Below, in pieces: positions 16 through 12,107 of a stretch of 64,000 nucleotides of DNA (positions within the stretch are counted from its first letter, which is position 1; every line of letters begins with the position of its first letter). The stretch comes from Hahella sp. HN01 (GTDB lineage: Bacteria > Pseudomonadota > Gammaproteobacteria > Pseudomonadales > Oleiphilaceae): contig NZ_JAHMIN010000005.1 of assembly GCF_018986435.1 (NCBI RefSeq), positions 96,503-160,502 of the forward strand, given 5' to 3'. A program made the translations under genes and the position numbers. The notes below the pieces were generated by a model. It searched no databases, was not told where the DNA came from, and saw nothing but the letters and a program-made list of their open reading frames with translations.

Positions 16-2670
16 TTAGCGCTTAAATATCCAGCAATGAATCGTTTTATTGAGACTCTTGGAATAAACCTTCCCGGTTTCAATGAACTTGTAGCGCTGG
101 CTGTTGGGCAGCAGTTTCTTTAAGGCCTTGAGGTCCAGTGACTTCTGGCCGTGAGTGCGACACACCTCGTCAAAATGGTTCAGGTTAACGGCGATGTTTC
201 CTGTCCCTACGGCGTGGTTTAGAACTTCCACCAGGGCGCTGGACGCAAACGCGTTAGGGTCCGGCTGCGCGTTCAGATACTCGAAAGACTCCCAGAACTC
301 CGCCACCGCCGGGTGGTCATCCGCCAGGCGCTCCTGGCGACTGAGAGCCCGTCCATACAGATAATCGCTCAAAGCACTGAAAGCGCTTTCATTAAGGGTT
401 GGGAAGATATGCCGCAACGCTTTTGCAGCCGCCATTATCTGGGCGTGGTTTTTCACCAAACGCAGCAGGCTGGTTTTAATTTCCCCGCGGTTGGTGAAGG
501 CTTCCTCATAGCGATTAAACTCGTTGAAGAACGTGTTTAAGATCTGCGTTTCATTCTCCAACGCTTTACGCAGAAAGCCCGCCATCTGATCGACGCTTTG
601 CCGTTCGAACCACTGCGCCAGTTTTCGCGTGCCTGGCGAGTGGTGTTCGGTCGTACAGTGACAATGGACAATCCGTTGTAGCAGGGCTTCCGATCCATCC
701 ACCTCGGCATTTTGCGCAAACACCAGCGAGCCTAAAAAGAGCGGTTCTTCCGTGTCGTTGCCGCGCTTGGCGACGCCCAGCGTCCCGACCGCGCGCCCGT
801 TAAAGAAGGGTTTAAACTCGTCGAAATCAAACTGCTTCTTTTTCACGTCCATATCGTCGCCCCGGTCGGATTCAATCAACACCAGGGGCATGTTAGAGCT
901 TTGCGTGAATGCGCGTCGGCGTCCGGCGGCCGTCGCCTTCATGGCGTCGAATCCTTCGTAGTCGTCGCGGCCCATGAGCTTCCAAAGAAACTCAATCAAC
1001 GTGGATTTACCGGCGCCAGGATCGCCCGTCAGTTCAAGAAAGGGAAAGCTCTTGTGCTTCGCCCGGATCTGCTGAACGAACAACGAGCCCAGCCAGAAGG
1101 CAAGCGCCGTTAATCCTTGCCAGGAAAAGGTCGTTAAAAAGTTGTCGATCCACTCCGGGTTAAACTCTCCAGGCTGCACCCGAAAGCCCTTAAAGCTGGT
1201 TTTGATGCCGCCCCGGTCCAGTTCAAAATACCCCTCCGCGTTGAGTTCCAGTTCTTTGCCTTTACTAAAAGCAAAGGTCTGGTAGACGTAAGCCTGGCTG
1301 TCGGCGTGGTAGCCCACATAAGGAATGGATTGAATCTCTTTGACCTTACGGTTTAACCACAACTCATGCAGCATGGCCATGTCTTTGGAGCTACCGGAAA
1401 ACGCGCCATAGCCCTTGGTGATCATCGCCTTATGAAAGCTCGATGGCGTGTCGATGTTGCTCCCATCAAATGGGATTAACGCATCCGCGTTATTGCTGCT
1501 GTACTGCACCCGGAACACATAAAACTTTTCGTCCAGGATCTCGTCGCGCTCCGCATAAAGCAGTTCCGGCACAAAGTTACTGATAGGGAAGGCTGTGCAG
1601 TGCTGGCTAAACGAGTCATAGCCTTTACCTAGCGTCAATGCTGCACCGTCCAGTGCTTCGGACAGCTTATGTAAGTCCACCGAAACGGAATACAGCCGGT
1701 TCTCAAAGTCGATAACGAAGTAAGAATGACGCTTCCACAAATAGTACGCGTACGCCTTCCACATCACGCTTTGCGCTGTGAACATTTTCCCCCGGTATTG
1801 CGCTTCCTGCAGGAACGTATCGTTGATACTATCCAGGCGGTAAAGGTCGTCCCAGTCCTTGCTGGTTCCGGTTAGAGATATCTCGACTTTTTCACCCGCC
1901 ATCTGGAGCTTGGTGTAGTGGGATTTCATGCTCTTGCGTCCCGCTGCGTCGTCATCCAACGCCAGCACCCAAGTGATTCTTTTCCCTAGATAGGGTTTTA
2001 TCGCCTCGCTTGGGTAGTAGCCGGCGGCCAGGATCGCCACCGCCTTATGCTCGCAGAAGTGCAGCGCGAGGGCGTGAAAGATCCCCTCCACGATATAAAC
2101 GCGATCACCTTGTTTAAGCACCTGGGTCGGCGGCATCCACCATTTGCCCTTAACCGGATCAACCAAAACCCATCGCCCATTGACGTTATGGCGTTTACCG
2201 CTGAAGTTGATGCGCTGGCCGTCGTCCTTCTGTTTGTCGATCAGCCGTTCCCAATAAAGGGTCCGGTCGCTGTTCAGATAGAAACGGACGGTGTTGCACC
2301 ACTCCTGAGACTTGGGCTGCTTATAGCTGCCTTGCTCATACCACCCCACCATTTCACTCAAAGGGAAACGGCGATTGTGCGCCAGGTAGGCGTCCGCCGT
2401 GGCGTTCGGGTTTTGCTCCGTAGTGGGGAAGCGTTCAGAGTAGTTATTGAAAAGTTCCGGGTATATCTCCCGGGTTGTCTCGCTATAGCCGCAATGTTTT
2501 AAACGGTTACAGCTGACGCGCCAGGGCTCTTTCATGCTAACGAAAAGCTCTTTCTTTCCGCAGTTTGGGCATTTGCCCTGCTGTAGGTATTCCCCTACAC
2601 GCTTGAAAGCGAACTGGCCATCGCTGGCCAGCGCCTCCGCTATTTCGTTTCTGTTATCGAAAATTTGCAT
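16..2670 (-). CDS. Phage/satellite-type primase-helicase (zinc ribbon, Toprim, P-loop ATPase)
   Basis: Likely replication protein of the integrated element, making primers and unwinding DNA. The N-terminus carries a zinc ribbon (C34, C37, C54, C60). A Toprim-like stretch lies near residues 190-270, with VYIVEG and LALDDDAAG holding the acidic residues. A helicase-type ATPase follows, with Walker A GDPGAGKST near residue 548 and LVLIESDR as a possible Walker B. The middle and C-terminal part resembles DUF927-like phage and plasmid ATPases. The start is supported by AAGGA eight bases upstream of the ATG. It follows the small regulator at 2690-2887 by 19 bases and is probably co-transcribed with it. 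Known for the family: such proteins replicate P4-like satellites and plasmids. The rest of the element lies left of the window. Confidence 0.85.
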   Translation of the reverse strand: MQIFDNRNEIAEALASDGQFAFKRVGEYLQQGKCPNCGKKELFVSMKEPWRVSCNRLKHCGYSETTREIYPELFNNYSERFPTTEQNPNATADAYLAHNRRFPLSEMVGWYEQGSYKQPKSQEWCNTVRFYLNSDRTLYWERLIDKQKDDGQRINFSGKRHNVNGRWVLVDPVKGKWWMPPTQVLKQGDRVYIVEGIFHALALHFCEHKAVAILAAGYYPSEAIKPYLGKRITWVLALDDDAAGRKSMKSHYTKLQMAGEKVEISLTGTSKDWDDLYRLDSINDTFLQEAQYRGKMFTAQSVMWKAYAYYLWKRHSYFVIDFENRLYSVSVDLHKLSEALDGAALTLGKGYDSFSQHCTAFPISNFVPELLYAERDEILDEKFYVFRVQYSSNNADALIPFDGSNIDTPSSFHKAMITKGYGAFSGSSKDMAMLHELWLNRKVKEIQSIPYVGYHADSQAYVYQTFAFSKGKELELNAEGYFELDRGGIKTSFKGFRVQPGEFNPEWIDNFLTTFSWQGLTALAFWLGSLFVQQIRAKHKSFPFLELTGDPGAGKSTLIEFLWKLMGRDDYEGFDAMKATAAGRRRAFTQSSNMPLVLIESDRGDDMDVKKKQFDFDEFKPFFNGRAVGTLGVAKRGNDTEEPLFLGSLVFAQNAEVDGSEALLQRIVHCHCTTEHHSPGTRKLAQWFERQSVDQMAGFLRKALENETQILNTFFNEFNRYEEAFTNRGEIKTSLLRLVKNHAQIMAAAKALRHIFPTLNESAFSALSDYLYGRALSRQERLADDHPAVAEFWESFEYLNAQPDPNAFASSALVEVLNHAVGTGNIAVNLNHFDEVCRTHGQKSLDLKALKKLLPNSQRYKFIETGKVYSKSLNKTIHCWIFKR

Positions 2671-2689
2671 TAGTCGTCCTTAGCCCCAA

Positions 2690-2887
2690 TTACCCTTGGC
2701 TTTCGCTTGCTTTTACGCATTCCAGTGTCAGCTGGGCGATGTTAATGAGGTGAAGCCTACCAATATGCATGGTTGGTATATTCCCTCTGTCAACTTGTCC
2801 TCTTACCTGGTCAACCCTCAATCCAGAATGCTTTGCAAAATTCTCCTGAGTCATCACTGGCGTTAAAACCACAACAGCCTCGCTCAT
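2690..2887 (-). CDS. Small DNA-binding regulator, Cox/AlpA-like
   Basis: A 65-residue protein with a compact helix-turn-helix-like segment (MTQENFAKHSGLRVDQVRG, then a basic VDRGNIPTMHIGR wing). This is typical of small phage Cox/excisionase or AlpA-type regulators. A longer reading frame begins at 2971, but the start at 2887 is preferred because GGAGAG lies eight bases upstream. It sits directly upstream of the primase-helicase and diverges from the XRE repressor and integrase, the usual position of a Cox-type switch protein. Inferred role: repression of the integrase/repressor promoter and/or help with excision. The assignment rests on size, motif and context rather than on a recognised named family. 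Confidence 0.65.
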   Translation of the reverse strand: MSEAVVVLTPVMTQENFAKHSGLRVDQVRGQVDRGNIPTMHIGRLHLINIAQLTLECVKASESQG

Positions 2888-2936
2888 TAGTACAACTCTC
2901 CATTTAATCATGTTGTAACTTGGTCTTACGTGTTCC

Positions 2937-3098
2937 GGAGTATTATTTACTCCTTGCGTCTCGGCAGTCAAGTATTATTAGATCCAGGAAGAGTAAATAA
3001 TGCTCTTTATGGGTTGCGGGTGCTCATAGTTACTCCTAAAGGCGTAAAAATTCTTACGTAACATTCACTATGTATGCAGCAAGGTGTAATAATGTGCT
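2937..3098. promoter_or_regulatory. Divergent control region with repeated operator-like sites
   Basis: The region between the leftward early genes and the rightward repressor holds related A+T-rich sites. They are a perfect 6-bp inverted repeat GGAGTA/TACTCC spaced by 5 (2937-2953), AGTATTATTA at 2971-2980, AGTAAATAATGCT at 2992-3004 (the reverse of ATTATTTACT in the first site), and GTGTAATAATGTGCT at 3084-3098. This pattern suits binding sites for the XRE repressor and/or the Cox-like protein. The core promoters were not resolved. Confidence 0.5.
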
Positions 3099-3165
3099 CT
3101 AACGTGGCCTATTAACGAGATCACTGGAAGGCCAACTTATGATCAAATTTTGAGAAGGCAAAGCT

Positions 3166-3483
3166 ATGAAAATGAAGGCGGGTGATCGGCTCCAGGGACT
3201 AAGAGAATTGATTGGATTAACTCAGCGTGAATTTGCCGAACTGCTTGGTATTGACTATTTCCGGCTCAAAAATATTGAGCAGCAAAAAGCAAGAATGGCT
3301 GAGGATGAGTTCGCTCAAGTTGGATTGCTGATTCCAGAAATGCTGCATTGGGTTGCTTGCGAAAGTGATATCTCGTTAAGCGCTTTGCAAAACAGTGAGG
3401 CAAAGCTCTGTAGATTGATCGCAGCGAAAATAGAAGCAGGGCAGGTTCCTGAAGGGTATATGTTGGAGGAAAAAATTAAGTAA
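3166..3483 (+). CDS. XRE-family phage repressor
   Basis: A 105-residue protein whose N-terminal half is a Cro/CI-type helix-turn-helix (residues about 5-40; recognition segment around TQREFAELLGIDYFRLKNIEQ). The remainder is a short helical tail. AGAAGG lies upstream of the ATG. Its stop overlaps the integrase start by a base (TAATG), so the two genes are translationally coupled. The divergent promoter region upstream contains repeated operator-like sites that it could bind. Inferred role: maintenance of the integrated state by repressing the leftward replication genes. Base composition is A+T-richer than the chromosomal genes to the right. Confidence 0.8.
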   Translation: MKMKAGDRLQGLRELIGLTQREFAELLGIDYFRLKNIEQQKARMAEDEFAQVGLLIPEMLHWVACESDISLSALQNSEAKLCRLIAAKIEAGQVPEGYMLEEKIK

Positions 3484-4496
3484 TGGCTTTTAAGAAAGTT
3501 GCAACGGGATGGCAGGTTGATATAAGGCCTGAAGGGCGTGGAGGGAAAAGAGTAAGAAAAACATTTCCTAAGCTCCAGCAGGCGAAGCAGTGGGAAGCCG
3601 AGCAAAAGTCAAAAGCCTATTCTGGTGAATGGAAGGTGCCAACCAAGGACAAGCGAAGATTATCTGATCTTGTTAAAACTTGGCATGACCTGCATGGCCA
3701 TACACTTAAAGATGGAGATAACCGGCTGCACGCATTGAAAGTTTTGTGCGAGAAGTTAAATAACCCTATAGCCAAAGAGTTTACAGCCGAGGACTTTTTA
3801 GAATACAGGCGATGGCGACTTACGCAGAAAGTTAAAAACAGCAATAGGCTGGTTTCAGCAAACACGGTAAACCATGATCACATGTACTTATCGGCCGTTT
3901 TTAACAAACTGATCAAGTTTGGTAACTGGAAGCTTGAGAACCCCCTTAAAGGTGTCTCAAAACTTCGGATAGACGAACGTGATTTAACCTATCTGGAAAA
4001 GGACCAAATAAGGGCGTTACTAGAAGCCCTGAAGAAATCAAGAAATCCCAATGTATTGGCCATGTCGAAAATTTGTTTGGCAACAGGGGCCCGTTGGGGG
4101 GAAGCTGAGAAACTGAATGCGGAGCAAATCAGACATAACAAAGTTCACTTTGTTGGCACTAAAAACAGTAAATCAAGAGCAGTTCCAATTTCGGAAGAAT
4201 TGGCGGTTGAGATACTGTCAGGACGTGCAGAAAGAGGGCGCTTGTTTAGAGGAGCGGGATCAGAAGAAGCATTTGAGCGAGCAGTAAAGAGAGCTGGATT
4301 AACCCTCCCACACGGTCAGCTAACACACATCCTACGACACACTTTTGCTTCCCACTATATGATCAATGATGGGAATATCCTGAAGTTAAAATATATTTTG
4401 GGGCACGCGTCATTGGATATGACAATTCGCTACGCAAAACTGGCTCCGGCCCACTTGGCTGATGCAGTATCCAAAAACCCTCTTGCTACGCTTTAA
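3483..4496 (+). CDS. int: Tyrosine-family phage integrase
   Basis: Site-specific recombinase that integrates and excises the element. The N-terminal 50 or so residues form an arm-binding-like domain (GWQVDIRPEGRGGKRVRK), followed by a SAM-like core-binding domain to about residue 165. The catalytic domain shows the expected set: Arg in TGARWGE (about 203), Lys in the GTKNSKSRA hairpin (about 225), HILRHTF (H about 282, R about 285), GHAS (about 306) and the nucleophile Tyr in IRYAKLAP (about 316). All catalytic residues are present, so it is probably active. It is coupled to the repressor upstream. In phages with this order the attachment site lies just beyond the integrase, here within 4497-4962. 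Confidence 0.95.
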   Translation: MAFKKVATGWQVDIRPEGRGGKRVRKTFPKLQQAKQWEAEQKSKAYSGEWKVPTKDKRRLSDLVKTWHDLHGHTLKDGDNRLHALKVLCEKLNNPIAKEFTAEDFLEYRRWRLTQKVKNSNRLVSANTVNHDHMYLSAVFNKLIKFGNWKLENPLKGVSKLRIDERDLTYLEKDQIRALLEALKKSRNPNVLAMSKICLATGARWGEAEKLNAEQIRHNKVHFVGTKNSKSRAVPISEELAVEILSGRAERGRLFRGAGSEEAFERAVKRAGLTLPHGQLTHILRHTFASHYMINDGNILKLKYILGHASLDMTIRYAKLAPAHLADAVSKNPLATL

Positions 4497-4962: not shown

Positions 4963-6111
4963 ATGCAAGAAAGCAACCTCCCCGCGCAGCACCAATTACT
5001 TGATCTTGAAAACCCATTGCCGTCATGGAATTTAAAGAAAAAGATCACAGGTAAGAAATTGATGATCACCAAGGAGGCTGACACCTTCATGCGTGGTTTG
5101 AACCTTTACGAAAAAACAAAGGTTTATAATGAGGTGCTAAAGCTAGCCAGCGAGGGAGGTTATGGACGTTTTAGTAAGGGTTTTAGGAAAGACCCTATGT
5201 TCATGCGCGAAAAGAAGTGCTCAGGTGGAATTAGCTTTATGTATAACGTGAACCCTGAAATGATCGTAATTAACCGAATGAAGTTGGAACTAGAGCCTAC
5301 AAGCCTAGCAACTCCTGTAAACAAGCAGCAAATGGGTTTGTTTGAAGTTAAACGTAAGTCTGGTGTTCGCTGGCATGAAGGTTCTACCAAGGCAGATATT
5401 GAAGAGTTGGAAAATGCATGGGGGACTCCAGAGCCAATTAGTACTATTAAAACTGAGCATGTTGCTATTAACGGAATGTCAAATGACCTTGAAAAGGCAT
5501 CTTGGTTAATGGGCGTTCATATGGACACGGCATATTGGGGCGACAACGCAAAGGCATACACTCTGGTATACAACCCCACTCGCGGTAAGCTCGATATCTT
5601 CGAGTGTATACAAGATCGGGTTTCAACTTCTAAGCTGGCTGAACTATTGGCAATTATGCTGATAGAGAGTCAGCAAAATGGCGTGAATCGTAAATGGACT
5701 GCTCATAGTCAGGGTGGGATTATCATGACCCGAGCAGTGGAGCTGGTGAATATGCGCGGAATAAAGTTAGAAGGGCAACGAGTATCCATTCATGCTGGCG
5801 GAAACTATAAGACGCGAGCAGAAAATGCCTTTACAAAAGCAGGGATGATCATCGACGAAATCAGACGGGATCATCCAGATGATTTCGTGCCTCACCTTTT
5901 AGGCTTTAACGATTTATCACCCGGTTCATTTATCCGAGGCATCCGCAGTATGAAGCTTGTAACTGGTGATAAACGTCCTGTTGAAGTCAGCCCACATACG
6001 CTACCCTACCTTGGGAGAGAGACAGCTATCCGCCACTTGCAGATGAACGGCTATCATAAGAAAGCGGAAAGGCTAGCGGAGCTAACCATGAAGGAGTTTG
6101 ACCTGCTATGA
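4963..6111 (+). CDS. Lipase-like serine hydrolase, candidate toxin/effector
   Basis: A 382-residue protein not matched to a named family. The central and C-terminal part has the look of an alpha/beta hydrolase used by polymorphic or secreted lipase effectors: HVAINGMSND, a strand LVYNPTRGKLDIFE, and the nucleophile elbow AHSQGG with Ser249 in a GxSxG-like position (Ala replaces the first Gly). HAGGNYKTRAENAF follows. No signal peptide or membrane segment is visible. The ribosome site is AGGAAAG, eight bases before the ATG. The next gene starts inside its stop codon (ATGA overlap), the usual arrangement of a toxin and its immunity gene. Composition is A+T-richer than the chromosome, and it lies next to the integrase, so it may be phage cargo. 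Function is inferred only. Confidence 0.55.
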   Translation: MQESNLPAQHQLLDLENPLPSWNLKKKITGKKLMITKEADTFMRGLNLYEKTKVYNEVLKLASEGGYGRFSKGFRKDPMFMREKKCSGGISFMYNVNPEMIVINRMKLELEPTSLATPVNKQQMGLFEVKRKSGVRWHEGSTKADIEELENAWGTPEPISTIKTEHVAINGMSNDLEKASWLMGVHMDTAYWGDNAKAYTLVYNPTRGKLDIFECIQDRVSTSKLAELLAIMLIESQQNGVNRKWTAHSQGGIIMTRAVELVNMRGIKLEGQRVSIHAGGNYKTRAENAFTKAGMIIDEIRRDHPDDFVPHLLGFNDLSPGSFIRGIRSMKLVTGDKRPVEVSPHTLPYLGRETAIRHLQMNGYHKKAERLAELTMKEFDLL

Positions 6112-6875
6112 TCAAACAGCTGGTGAGGCCCCTATTAACAGGAAAAGGGCCGAACTTTTCAAAGCTAACTACTAAGGAGTGTGGCATTGGTGACTACAGA
6201 TTGCGATATAAGCTTCCCGGCAACATCATAAAAATTGGAACTGCCGATGCTCAGACTCCATCAAGAGTTAACTTGCAAGCTGATCTATTTGAGTCATATA
6301 GCCCAAAGAAGCTTTTTAACCGTACCTTTGTGCGAATGGATTTCGAGTGGTGGGCTTATAGAGGAATTTTCTTACAGGGCGATTCGGGGCTGATTAGTAA
6401 GATGAGTTTGCATCTTGACGTCAATCAAGCAGAATCTCACACGCCACTTTTTAAAGAGAAACTTGATAGTTTGGAGTCGTATCTTAAAAAGGACTACTGG
6501 GAATATTACGAAACAGAAGAAAATAAGGATGGAGAGCCTGGGGCTAATTGGCAGCAGCGTTATAATTTTGAAAATCCTGACGAAGTTAGAGCTAAGGGAT
6601 ATATACCCCTTGGGAGGTTAGAGTTAGTGACGCACTTGCCAGAAATATACTACAGAGAGGCTATTAATGGACTTGAATGGCTTCACTATTGCATTAGAGG
6701 TGAAGGCGTCGGGCGGGGACAAAGTTATTATTGGGCTTATCCACTGAGCGATAACTATTACTTAACACTCAACTTTCGGGTTTCTTCAGAGATTGGCAAC
6801 AAAGAACTGAGATATCAGCGTATGTACGAAGATGCTAAACGTATCATGTCAATGGTTGAACTACGTAAAGAGTAA
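6108..6875 (+). CDS. Unknown protein, candidate immunity partner
   Basis: A 255-residue soluble protein with no recognised family. It has many aromatic and acidic residues (YWEYYETEENKDGEPG; WWAYRG) and no signal peptide, transmembrane segment or catalytic motif. The start overlaps the stop of the lipase-like gene by four bases (ATGA), with AAGGAG upstream, so synthesis of the two should be coupled. A rho-independent terminator follows immediately, making a two-gene unit. In toxin/immunity loci the second, non-enzymatic and often acidic gene is the antidote, and that is the inference here. Alternatives are an adaptor or chaperone for the hydrolase. Confidence 0.5.
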   Translation: MIKQLVRPLLTGKGPNFSKLTTKECGIGDYRLRYKLPGNIIKIGTADAQTPSRVNLQADLFESYSPKKLFNRTFVRMDFEWWAYRGIFLQGDSGLISKMSLHLDVNQAESHTPLFKEKLDSLESYLKKDYWEYYETEENKDGEPGANWQQRYNFENPDEVRAKGYIPLGRLELVTHLPEIYYREAINGLEWLHYCIRGEGVGRGQSYYWAYPLSDNYYLTLNFRVSSEIGNKELRYQRMYEDAKRIMSMVELRKE

Positions 6876-9234: not shown

Positions 9235-10110
9235 GTGCGTACATTACGTTGGGCGGTGGCGTCCGCGTTACTGTTGATGACGCTCGCGGTTGCAGCGGAA
9301 ACCATAGTGGTGCGATATCCGCGACCTGAGGCGGATGTGGATAAGCGGACCGAGTATCCGCTGAAGCTGCTTGAGCTCGCCTTTCAGAAAATGAAAGTCG
9401 ACTACAGTCTGGTTCCCACCGATCAGTTGATGAATCAGGGGCGCGCTTTGCAACTGTTGCGTTCCGGCTCTAATCTGGATGTGGTCTGGAGTATGACTTC
9501 CGACGAGCGCGAAAAGGAATTGCTGCCGGTGCGCATCCCCATCTACAAAGGCCTGATCGGCTGGCGCATCTTTCTGATCAATGAAAGCGACGTGGAGCGC
9601 CTCAGCCGCCCCATGACCGCGCAGGACATGAAACAGTTTCTGATGGTGCAGGGCCACGACTGGCCGGACGCCAAAATCCTGCAGATGAACGGCTACAAAG
9701 TGCTGGGCACGCCCAACTACGAAACCATCTTCGATATGCTGGCGCGCCGCCGCGTGGATCTGTTTCCCCGCTCTATCGTGGAAATCTGGGCGGAGCTGGA
9801 GAACCATCGGGAAATGGGGCTGGCCATCGAACAGACCAAGCTACTGCGCTATCCCACCGCCTTTTACTACTTCGTCGCTCCGGATAACAAGGAACTGGAG
9901 GCGCTGATCGAAGAAGGTCTGCTGCGCGCCTTGGCGGACGGCTCCTTCGACGATATGTTTTTCTACTACCACGGCGAACTGCTGAATAAAGCCAAGCTGG
10001 CGCACCGCGAAGTGTACATGCTGACCAATCCTATCCTGCCTGAAAGAACCCCTTTGCATCGCGAAGGTCTCTGGTATCAAGGTTACGAGGACTCGCCACG
10101 GGTGCGTTGA
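9235..10110 (+). CDS. Periplasmic solute-binding-protein-like protein
   Basis: A 291-residue exported protein with an N-terminal signal peptide (about residues 1-20, cleavage near AVAAE). The body looks like a family 3 amino-acid-type binding fold (ETIVVRYPRPEADVDKRTEY; LDVVWSMTSDERE; DLFPRSIVEIWAEL). No permease or ATPase gene is adjacent, so it may be an orphan receptor or a sensory binding protein rather than part of an importer. The start is GTG at 9235 with GGGGA upstream. The retron promoter lies just downstream of its stop. The ligand is not predictable. Confidence 0.75.
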   Translation: MRTLRWAVASALLLMTLAVAAETIVVRYPRPEADVDKRTEYPLKLLELAFQKMKVDYSLVPTDQLMNQGRALQLLRSGSNLDVVWSMTSDEREKELLPVRIPIYKGLIGWRIFLINESDVERLSRPMTAQDMKQFLMVQGHDWPDAKILQMNGYKVLGTPNYETIFDMLARRRVDLFPRSIVEIWAELENHREMGLAIEQTKLLRYPTAFYYFVAPDNKELEALIEEGLLRALADGSFDDMFFYYHGELLNKAKLAHREVYMLTNPILPERTPLHREGLWYQGYEDSPRVR

Positions 10111-10135: not shown

Positions 10136-10165
10136 TTGACAAGTGCGTTTGTTGTCCTCTACCTT
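10136..10165 (+). promoter_or_regulatory. Predicted retron promoter
   Basis: A perfect -35 TTGACA (10136-10141) is followed by an 18-base spacer and a weak -10, TACCTT (10160-10165). The expected start point, about seven bases on, is near 10172, which coincides with the start of the a1 repeat of the retron RNA. Confidence 0.6.
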
Positions 10166-10171
10166 GCTCTG

Positions 10172-10338
10172 CGACGACGCTTCAAGCGAGCGTGATCCGG
10201 AACCGGCGCGACCGGGCCTGATCCGTTGCTCCGGGGCTACCCCGGGGTTACATGTTGACTGAACATATCGCCGTCCATACCGCCCTACGCCAAGGCGTAG
10301 AACGGTATCGACCACGGGAGGAGGGTTGGAGCGTCGTC
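10172..10338 (+). ncRNA. Retron msr-msd non-coding RNA
   Basis: Template and primer RNA for the adjacent reverse transcriptase. The arm GACGACGCTTCAA (10173-10185, a1) pairs with TTGGAGCGTCGTC (10326-10338, a2) over 13 bp with one G-U pair. G10186 follows directly in the context AAGCGAG, the position expected of the 2'-branching guanosine. The msr part shows hairpins CCGG/CCGG (10203-10206 with 10212-10215, inside GATC/GATC), CCGGGG/CCCCGG (10231-10236 with 10240-10245) and ATGTT/AACAT (10252-10256 with 10262-10266). The msd part is one long stem: CCGT/ACGG (10271-10274 with 10314-10317), ATACCG/CGGTAT (10277-10282 with 10303-10308) and CTACGCC/GGCGTAG (10285-10291 with 10294-10300). By analogy with known retrons the DNA product should be roughly 55-70 nt. 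Confidence 0.8.
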
Positions 10339-10384
10339 CTCTTTCCCTTTTTAGCGTCCAATACTCTCCAGGGATTTTTTGGCG

Positions 10385-11719
10385 ATGAGATATGACCGCT
10401 GGTTGGCCGCCCGCCTCGCCGACGCATACCAATCCGGCCCGCCGATAACGCGGGAAATGAATCAACGCGCCGCTCTGTCCCTGGCGCAACACCCTGGCTG
10501 GCTTTCGCCATTGACGCGCCGAATGCGGACGCGGTTCCATCGGGCTTGGGAAACTACCTCCGCCTATACTCTGACGGAAGCCATTCTGGCTGACCGGGGC
10601 TTTCAGCGGGGGCTTGCCTTATCTTCCGACCCGGTTCAGGTGCGGTATATATTTTTGCCGTCGCCTCAGGAACTGCCGCCAGACTCTCCGGCGGCGCAAT
10701 GGGGATTGCCGGCGTTGCGTTGCGCTGGCGACCTGCTGGACTGGCTGCATTTGACCCCGGAGGACCTGAACTGGCTGACGCAGGCCCGTGGGGAACCGGG
10801 TAGGGCGTCATCCAGATTGGGACATTACTGTTATCGCTGGCTGGATAAACCCCGTGGCGGCGCCAGATTACTGGAAGCCCCTAAATCCTGGTTGAAGACA
10901 GTGCAGCGGCGTATTCATCAGGAGATTCTCGCTCCGCTGCCTTTGCACGACGCTGTTCATGGTTTTCGCGCAGAGCGCTCCAGCCTGACTCACGCCCGCG
11001 TCCATATCGGGCAGCCATTGTTGCTTAAGTTCGACCTCAAGGACTTCTTTCCGTCGGTGAATTATGCACAGATTTATCGCGCGTTCCGGCGTCTTGGATA
11101 TGGTCATCAGGTCGCTCGCCTGCTCAGTAAGCTGTGCTCTCATGTCACGCCCAACGAGATACTTCGCCATCCGGCGGCGCGTCATCTTGAACGCGGCGAT
11201 GAACTATTCCGCCGTGCGCACTTGCCTCAGGGCGCGCCAACCTCTCCGGCGCTCGCCAACCTCGCCGCCGCTCATCTGGATCGGCGCCTGAGCGCGCTGG
11301 CTGACAGTATGGGGCGGCGTTACAGTCGATACGCCGATGATTTCGTTTTATCGGGGCCGACGATGAGTCCCGGCGCGATAACGCGCTTACAAGCCTTGGT
11401 CGGCGCTATCGCATTGGAAGAAGGTTTCGTTTTGAACACGCGCAAAAACGCGGTGATCGGGCAGGGCGCGCGTCAGCAGGTGGGAGGCGTGGTAGTGAAC
11501 GCCAAGGCCAATATTCCGCGCAAGGACTACGATGCACTGAAAGCGGTGCTGCATAACTGCGTGCGCTTCGGTCCCGTTGGACAGAATCGCCAGAGCCACG
11601 AGCACTGGGCGGCGCACTTGAGGGGGCGCATTGCGTATATGGCGGGAATCAATCCAGAAAAAGGGCGCAAGTTGCTGGCGTTGTATCAGCGTATTGTCTG
11701 GCCGCAGGAATCCGTCTGA
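10385..11719 (+). CDS. Retron-type reverse transcriptase
   Basis: RNA-directed DNA polymerase that should extend from the branching guanosine of the upstream RNA to make msDNA. The palm motifs are clear: FDLKDFFPS (first catalytic Asp about 217), LPQGAPTSPALANL, YSRYADDFVLSG (YADD about 316-319), and a thumb-like C-terminus with HLRGRIAYMAGINPEKGRKLL. Where retron enzymes usually carry VTG, this one has QVGGVVVN (V366, G367, G368). RT homology begins near residue 110-155; the first roughly 110 residues are an extra N-terminal region, longer than in short enterobacterial retron RTs but comparable with long myxobacterial ones. ATG 10385 is preferred over TTG 10379 because AGGGA then has a ten-base spacing. 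No adjacent effector gene is evident. Known for retrons: they act in anti-phage defence. Confidence 0.93.
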   Translation: MRYDRWLAARLADAYQSGPPITREMNQRAALSLAQHPGWLSPLTRRMRTRFHRAWETTSAYTLTEAILADRGFQRGLALSSDPVQVRYIFLPSPQELPPDSPAAQWGLPALRCAGDLLDWLHLTPEDLNWLTQARGEPGRASSRLGHYCYRWLDKPRGGARLLEAPKSWLKTVQRRIHQEILAPLPLHDAVHGFRAERSSLTHARVHIGQPLLLKFDLKDFFPSVNYAQIYRAFRRLGYGHQVARLLSKLCSHVTPNEILRHPAARHLERGDELFRRAHLPQGAPTSPALANLAAAHLDRRLSALADSMGRRYSRYADDFVLSGPTMSPGAITRLQALVGAIALEEGFVLNTRKNAVIGQGARQQVGGVVVNAKANIPRKDYDALKAVLHNCVRFGPVGQNRQSHEHWAAHLRGRIAYMAGINPEKGRKLLALYQRIVWPQESV

Positions 11720-11741: not shown

Positions 11742-12107
11742 TTAAACACGTCCGCTTTTCTGCAGGCGTTGCATGACACTGCGGCGATACCAGCGGGACA
11801 ACCAGCTTTTCAAACCGGGCAGGCTCAGCAGCCAGGCCAGGGGACGCAGCAGCAGAGTACGACGCATAAGCAGGATATAGGCGTCCAGTTCCCGATGAAC
11901 ATCGCCGTTTTCATCGCGTACGTGCAGCTCTGTCATGGCGGCGTGGGGATCGATGCCTTCGCGGCGCAGGTCGTCATCGCGGCCGGTGATGTCCAGCCAG
12001 CACACATCGGCGGCGCGGTCCCCCGCCAGCTTTTCATAATTGCGACGGTCGCGGACGCAGCGGGGACAGGCGCCGTCGTAGTAAACCGTCAGTTTAGGTT
12101 GGGTCAT
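11742..12107 (-). CDS. DCC-family (DUF393) thiol-oxidoreductase-like protein
   Basis: A 121-residue protein with the DUF393 signature DGACPRCVRD near the N-terminus, a DxxCPxC motif resembling a thioredoxin-fold active site, followed by WLDITGRD. The C-terminal part has a hydrophobic, basic stretch (LLRPLAWLLSLPGLKSWLSRW) typical of the family. The start is set at 12107 rather than 12122 because GGAGGG lies at the proper distance. It is probably co-transcribed with the TerB-like gene upstream (20-base gap). The biological role of DCC proteins is not well established. Confidence 0.85.
   Translation of the reverse strand: MTQPKLTVYYDGACPRCVRDRRNYEKLAGDRAADVCWLDITGRDDDLRREGIDPHAAMTELHVRDENGDVHRELDAYILLMRRTLLLRPLAWLLSLPGLKSWLSRWYRRSVMQRLQKSGRV

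Follow-up and report, generated by a model that had tools for sequence, protein, structure and literature searches.

A chromosomal retron of Hahella sp. HN01 from a clade with its own RNA and no linked effector

In described retrons, reverse transcription is primed at a branching guanosine, the msd part of the RNA is copied and RNase H trimming takes place, the RNA being recognised by the reverse transcriptase (RT) through an 8-9-bp stem capped by a loop of three bases (PMC6868368). The RT motifs NAXXH (region X) and VTG (region Y) are typical and not obligatory: each is kept by 14 of 16 validated retron RTs, the exceptions being Ec48 and Mx65 for NAXXH, and Vc81 and Ec48 for VTG (PMC6868368). 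Retrons lacking clear nearby effectors are already known (PMC8867640; Retron-Bth1, PMC12548924). The locus described here resembles the retrons Mx65 and Mx162 (Retron-Mxa2 and Retron-Mxa1, respectively) in the extended N-terminus of its RT and in the AGC-type context of its branch site, Mx65 in the missing Asn of NAXXH, and the myxococcal retrons in general in the vertical inheritance that has been reported for them (PMC6868368). It shares with Retron-Bth1 an unclassified RT and the lack of an apparent effector; the RT-DNA of Retron-Bth1 was shown, and Retron-Bth1 differs in being extrachromosomal, with a group II intron inserted in its RT gene (PMC12548924). An initial annotation of this DNA knew of no description of the retron. 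This agrees with our literature search (retron and Hahella; the Mestre 2020 classification and the experimental census were outside its reach), in which no description was found, but the RT clade already has PADLOC profiles. The RNA matches nothing in Rfam 15 (no family matched the RNA region, even at E≤10).

The element (1.58 kb) is located in the chromosome of Hahella sp. HN01 (genome of 7.13 Mb, genus Hahella), in a 64,000-nt part of contig NZ_JAHMIN010000005.1; this whole stretch is called the window below. The element is flanked upstream by a gene ending at 10110 (62 bp before a1) and downstream by a converging ORF with its low end at 11742 (22 bp after the RT stop). It is very probably a working chromosomal retron, in which one transcript would carry the msr-msd RNA and the RT, and which is predicted to make msDNA, with no effector gene in the cassette (Table 1). 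The retron identity is strongly supported: the RNA structure is borne out by covariation, the RNA is linked to the RT, the RT resembles retron RTs in homology and predicted fold, and purifying selection is seen. The neighbourhood holds no widely conserved gene. The initial annotation had read the locus as a complete retron, with msr-msd RNA, branching G and RT. Covariation, RNA-RT linkage and RT family agree with the retron reading, and the coordinates of the arms, the branch-type G and the YADD RT agree with a direct reading of the sequence; "complete" holds for the RNA plus RT only, as no effector gene is present in the cassette and none is widely conserved nearby.

Table 1. Coordinates of the retron features in the window and the evidence for each.
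Feature	Position	Strand	Evidence
Probable promoter (TTGACA, 18-bp spacer, TACCTT)	10136..10165	+	Sequence; TTGACA and -10-like hexamers of relatives
a1, 5' arm of the inverted repeat	10173..10185	+	13 bp with 10326-10338; covariation
Putative branching (priming) guanosine, context AAGC	10186	+	AAG or GAG in 36/36 aligned sequences
msr hairpin 1	10189..10227	+	MFE; 12/12 modelled pairs with change on both sides
msr hairpin 2, 9-bp stem, 3-nt loop, possible RT recognition element	10228..10248	+	98.8% of cells paired (36 sequences); loop tally
msd hairpin, template of the predicted reverse-transcribed DNA	10273..10312	+	Upper-stem pairing 98.1% (36 sequences)
a2, 3' arm; reverse transcription expected to begin at the preceding GG/CG	10326..10338	+	Pairing with a1; covariation
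Retron reverse transcriptase, 444 aa, YADD	10385..11719	+	PADLOC, AlphaFold2, Foldseek, dN/dS

The 13-bp inverted repeat that had been noticed at first is present with its single G-U pair (T10182-G10329), and the G directly after its first arm lies in the context CAAGCGAG, i.e. a priming-type G in an AGC-like context at the end of a1. Folding of 10165-10345 gave a minimum free energy (MFE) of -84.6 kcal/mol (z -3.65; 0/200 shuffles as good), and the RNAs of three diverged relatives folded with z values of -7.65, -6.35 and -5.86. The long interrupted msd hairpin exists as claimed, with its pairing at 10273-10312 (10271-10317 in the initial annotation); three further outer pairs (10268-10270 with 10315-10317) were found only in the MFE structure. 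Three small msr hairpins had been proposed, and two of them (hairpins 1 and 2 in Table 1) are conserved. The third (10252-10266, 5 bp) was rejected as a conserved part: one of its pairs is lost and one is now G-U in 2/3 of the closest species, and it was not seen as such in the MFE structures of the three diverged relatives. It was excluded from the covariance model. The core of hairpin 2 is near-invariant (GGGG-NNN-CCCC), and its motif gave one exact match within the window and 0 in 100 shuffles. With its stem and loop sizes, hairpin 2 resembles the known retron recognition stem-loop (PMC6868368).

The perfect TTGACA seen at first is present (10136-10141), and the -10 box TACCTT (10160-10165) matches the consensus at 3/6 positions. 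A generic promoter scan reported no promoter. TTGACA is kept in 7/7 of the closest loci, and a -10 hexamer with at least 4/6 consensus positions was found 3-12 nt 5' of arm 1 in 24/47 loci, versus 4.6% of random places. From these promoter elements of the relatives, the transcript probably starts at about 10172.

For the analysis of covariation, seven loci were aligned: the window, three close Hahella, H. ganghwensis, Hahella sp. CCB-MM4 and one genome of another genus of the family. Compensatory changes in the arms were already visible in this alignment, from which the covariance model R1 was built. R1 was run on 80 public genome-contig loci (two of which were training members) and on the close set. 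A plus-strand match at E≤0.01 was obtained in 51/78 further loci (38/48 in one set, 13/30 in the other), and the remaining 27/78 had no R1 match at this threshold. The RNA lies just upstream of the RT gene in 50/51 of the matched loci, and an RT ORF stands behind the RNA in 36/38 loci of the first set and 13/13 of the second. The first RT start codon is at most 65 nt from the R1 match, except in one locus (L041, 243 nt); in another (L074), the RT is directly behind the RNA and split over two frames. The single locus with a distant RT is that of Massilia rubra (L067:2268-5758), where about 3.3 kb with a P-type-ATPase-like ORF separate the retron RNA from an intact RT gene.

R1 matched the own 7.13-Mb genome at one place (plus the complement of the same place). 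In a search of 369 genomes of the class with R1 alone, blind to the RT (E≤0.001), 4 genomes were matched, one being the own genome, and the three new matches were each followed downstream by an RT of the same family (3/3, E 5e-152 or better). On 40 RT loci of several kinds, R1 matched 14/14 loci of the window RT family (L132 and L133 among them coincide with L031 and L042) and 0/26 loci of other RTs.

In an alignment of 36 sequences (A4), which was fitted to the model structure and whose pair counts lean towards the model, 92.3% of cells were paired, versus 68.1% when shuffled and at most 43.9% when slid. Changes on both sides were found in 42/49 pairs, doubly changed cells numbered 397 (125.6 in shuffles) and the covariation score was 0.566 (0.170 shuffled, 0.096 for the best slide). 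In the a1/a2 arms, 96.3% of cells were paired and 11/13 pairs were changed on both sides; the two parts of msr hairpin 1 were 86.3% and 91.4% paired, with many gaps; all 6/6 pairs of the msd upper stem were doubly changed; and the msd lower stem was 76.1% paired, two of its pairs fitting poorly. The branch site reads AGC in 26/36 sequences, and the two bases before a2 are GG (31/36) or CG (5/36). The check for compensatory changes in the arms and msd stems, which had been set beforehand as a refutation test, therefore found strong compensatory change. Thus, as in known retrons, an msr-msd RNA is enclosed by complementary a1/a2 arms upstream of an RT, and contains a long msd hairpin with conserved pairing.

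The RT ORF ends at 11719; a TTG is present at 10379 and an ATG at 10385, and the latter is most likely the start, because the relatives align from there. The YADD of the initial annotation is present in the window RT and in 41/41 family members. The RT was modelled with AlphaFold2 (41-sequence alignment, mean pLDDT 90.8), and a Foldseek search of the model against the PDB gave retron RTs at all ranks 1-18: the protein has a YADD-type core and a predicted retron RT fold. The best structural match was Retron-Eco1 (Ec86; TM 0.82 by target length, 27% identity). Retron-Eco1 is a Type II-A retron with a linked effector, and its RT (about 320 aa, chain 7v9u) lacks the N-terminal extension (about 140 residues) of the window RT. 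Both typical motifs deviate: region X is HARVH instead of NAXXH (mostly HAxxH in the family), and region Y is VGG instead of VTG (VTG in 12/41 and ITG in 8/41 family members).

The RT consists of a helical N-terminal domain (about residues 1-81, five helices in the AlphaFold2 model), a linker and the RT domain. The N-terminal domain could be assigned to a known domain neither by Pfam (in 40 members no match below E 0.03; five single-member matches, E 0.033-0.096), nor by sequence search of the PDB (two designed repeat proteins over 23 residues, otherwise E≥0.03), nor by Foldseek against the PDB (no fold match at E≤0.001, best E 2.8). Among the positions conserved in 60% or more of members, only R30 (31/40) and R89 (26/40) are charged, the others being hydrophobic, small, aromatic or Pro. 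Because of the missing Pfam and PDB matches and because only two Arg are found among the kept charged residues, the domain is unlikely to be an enzyme, and the kept residues suggest a structural or RNA-binding role instead.

Among PADLOC profiles, the window RT matched RT_other (PDLC02949; 8.2e-128, 425.6 bits), RT_outgroup (PDLC03740; 1.1e-120) and RT_XIII (1.1e-90, 302.9 bits); the NCBIfam retron models matched below their cut-offs. RT_other and RT_outgroup, untyped retron RT profiles that name neither effector nor RNA, fit the window RT best; 41/41 aligned family RTs matched both at E≤0.001, and they were the two best profiles in the seven RTs that were ranked (window, L031, L042, L029, L059, L055 and L137), with near full-length matches in most of the seven.

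A tree of 82 RTs (FastTree, 400 columns) was rooted on the RT-Toprim of the own genome. The window RT family forms a clade of 59 tips (support 0.91), of which 12 come from genomes in the same genus as a Pyxidicoccus locus. The remaining ingroup (22 tips) contains RTs of Mx65 length (L160, L161), other retron RTs of the genus of the Pyxidicoccus locus, and another RT of the own genome (592 aa) together with its orthologues in Hahella. In that genus, 27/27 genomes had an RT match at E≤1e-30 and 13/27 had a full-length RT of the window family; besides the Pyxidicoccus locus, 12 window-family loci of the genus carry the R1 RNA (one truncated). The coordinates of the Mx65 RT give 427 aa (PMC8934634). 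L160 and L161, also of 427 aa and considered Mx65-like from this length, belong to the sister clade and had no R1 match; the best PADLOC profile of L160 is RT_XIII, whereas that of the window RT is RT_other. An assignment of the window RT as Mx65-like or RT_XIII was therefore rejected, on the bit scores given above and the sister position in the tree. The Hahella retron belongs to a widespread and little-studied clade with its own RNA, a helical N-terminal domain and no linked effector.

The retron occupies the same chromosomal site in four close Hahella genomes (the own genome, G000, and G001, G002 and G005). Among these four species, identity is 95.8-98.2% for the RNA, 80.9-88.1% for the RT gene, 90.8-93.1% for the upstream gene and 65.1-100% for the spacer after the RNA, and dN/dS is 0.10-0.16 for the RT versus 0.018-0.051 for the upstream gene. 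The RT is under purifying selection, weaker than that on the flanking gene, and the RNA is the best kept part. The two closest named loci are those of H. ganghwensis and Hahella sp. CCB-MM4; besides these two, three Hahella genomes carry the RT at 82-91% identity. An RT match at E≤1e-10 was found in 9/58 relatives searched (own included; full-length in 7), and one of the six other genomes of the genus Hahella had no RT match. In H. ganghwensis and CCB-MM4, homologues of the flanking genes are on other contigs than the retron. Because of these off-contig homologues, the lack of an RT match in one congener and the few matches among the relatives, the retron must have been gained, lost or moved; an empty site in other Hahella was not demonstrable, as the homologues of the two flanking genes are on other contigs.

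A phage collection contained one RT match at E≤1e-20, covering the RT core only (43% of the query), and no relative was confirmed in a pattern scan that used the window RT against viral contigs. Four plasmid matches were obtained at E≤1e-40, all predicted to be non-mobilizable (three on Burkholderia replicons of 0.9-1.3 Mb, one on a Tsukamurella replicon). A mobile or phage retron was rejected as the main setting, on the sparse phage match and the non-mobilizable plasmid matches.

For the effector search, 462 neighbouring ORFs (at least 80 aa) of 47 loci were compared, and no family was present in more than 6 loci. An effector among the neighbours was rejected: the widest clusters comprised either four Hahella genomes joined by one or two further loci, or a set of four with mixed kinship, and clusters that reached beyond close kin had differing distances and strands. 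A linked or fused effector was thus found neither among the neighbours (ORFs of at least 80 aa), nor in the room of the cassette, nor in the RT N-terminus. With an effector absent from the cassette and no gene widely conserved beside it, the data give no support to the usual tripartite scheme for this retron, although an effector could still be encoded in trans or be very small (under 80 aa). A tripartite anti-phage retron, in which a toxic effector encoded elsewhere is held in check by the RT-msDNA complex or in which the fused N-terminal domain is itself the effector, nevertheless has a real chance, if one somewhat below even: effector-bearing retrons are abortive-infection systems (PMC12548924) and PADLOC contains single-gene retron types with fused effectors (Toprim, TIR, protease), whereas the gaps at both ends of the cassette (only 62 bp and 22 bp), the neighbour comparison and the N-terminal domain, with R30 and R89 as its only kept charged residues and no Pfam or PDB fold match, speak against it. 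A bolder reading, at less than even odds, is a separate class of effector-free retrons, marked by a conserved RNA of its own and by a helical RT N-terminal domain of unassigned fold. Here the complex of RT and msDNA would by itself be the functional unit, possibly with a role outside toxin-antitoxin defence; the loci of this class lie in Pseudomonadota, Myxococcota, Actinomycetota, Planctomycetota and Acidobacteriota. A vertically inherited maker of msDNA with a housekeeping or regulatory task and no defence role is conceivable, although somewhat doubtful: the shared site in the four close Hahella genomes, the GC content of the RT (0.60) close to that of the flanking gene (0.57), the single match in the phage collection and the possible other functions noted for retrons without clear nearby effectors (PMC8867640) fit this explanation, but one Hahella gave no RT match and few of the relatives did, and the off-contig flanking homologues of H. 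ganghwensis and CCB-MM4 point to gain, loss or movement.

The deviating motifs of regions X and Y might also be taken as signs of a decayed retron, inactive and with RT gene and RNA kept by chance. Decay is very improbable in view of the intact ORF, the YADD, the dN/dS and an RNA better conserved than the RT gene; moreover, the change in region X is nearly family-wide and not local damage. That the inverted repeat is a terminator, an attenuator or a chance structure before an orphan RT, and no retron RNA, is hardly credible: it would agree with the missing Rfam match, but not with the covariation, the RNA-only search of the class genomes or the restriction of R1 matches to the loci of one RT family among the 40 RT loci compared.

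In the working retron that we favour, the steps would be as follows, by analogy with known retrons. One transcript from about 10172 would carry the msr-msd RNA (10173-10338) and the RT, and a1 would pair with a2 in the folded RNA. The RT, which probably recognises msr hairpin 2, would prime on the 2'-OH of G10186 and copy the msd leftwards, from about G10325 to about 10265-10270. The predicted product is single-stranded DNA, about 55-62 nt long and linked to the RNA. The most likely arrangement would be a vertically kept RT-msDNA complex, with its partner, if any, encoded elsewhere. An anti-phage role would be an extrapolation from other retrons, and the chances of a defence role are about even.

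The clade addresses the question of what msDNA does without an adjoining effector, in a compact 1.6-kb cassette of RNA and RT only. The covariance model and the cultured hosts (for example Hahella, Massilia and Rhodococcus) make the production and function of effector-less msDNA accessible. As no Rfam 15 family is matched, a new RNA family could be added, and the short msd and simple architecture may be of interest for retron-based DNA production.

Three other RTs were met in the own genome. The second RT (C44:51660-52607; L001, L016), with a 592-aa frame and a hydrophobic C-terminal end, is of a kind common to four Hahella genomes (also L014, L015 and L017) and has RT_XIII as its best PADLOC profile (L014 tested); it had no R1 match and no convincing inverted repeat upstream. 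The 613-aa RT (C60:29258-29851; L004, L020) looks like an RT-Toprim retron of the Eco2/Ec67 type. The 551-aa RT (C73:30186-30614; L002) is unlike the window retron family (E 1.4e-05 with its profile) and may be a defence-associated RT. In Pyxidicoccus (L135:2922-3046), a sub-threshold match to Rfam mir-763 corresponds to a very long hairpin just 5' of another retron RT, and is probably the msd of this adjoining retron. In a Comamonadaceae MAG (L054:7350-7446), a SAH riboswitch (over the gathering score) was found 3' of the retron RT gene.

Within the window, the upstream gene (9235-10110, 291 aa) has no Pfam or NCBIfam match and is a member of a large paralogous family, with 6-13 matches in each of seven Hahella genomes. 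An ORF pair without Pfam match (4963-6875; 382 and 255 aa) lies further left, the 255-aa kind being present in several copies in a row in two relatives (L024, L025). The region 16-4496, about 5.6 kb to the left of the retron, contains an 884-aa minus-strand ORF, a small ORF (at 3166) and a phage-type integrase (at 3483), and may be the end of an integrated element.
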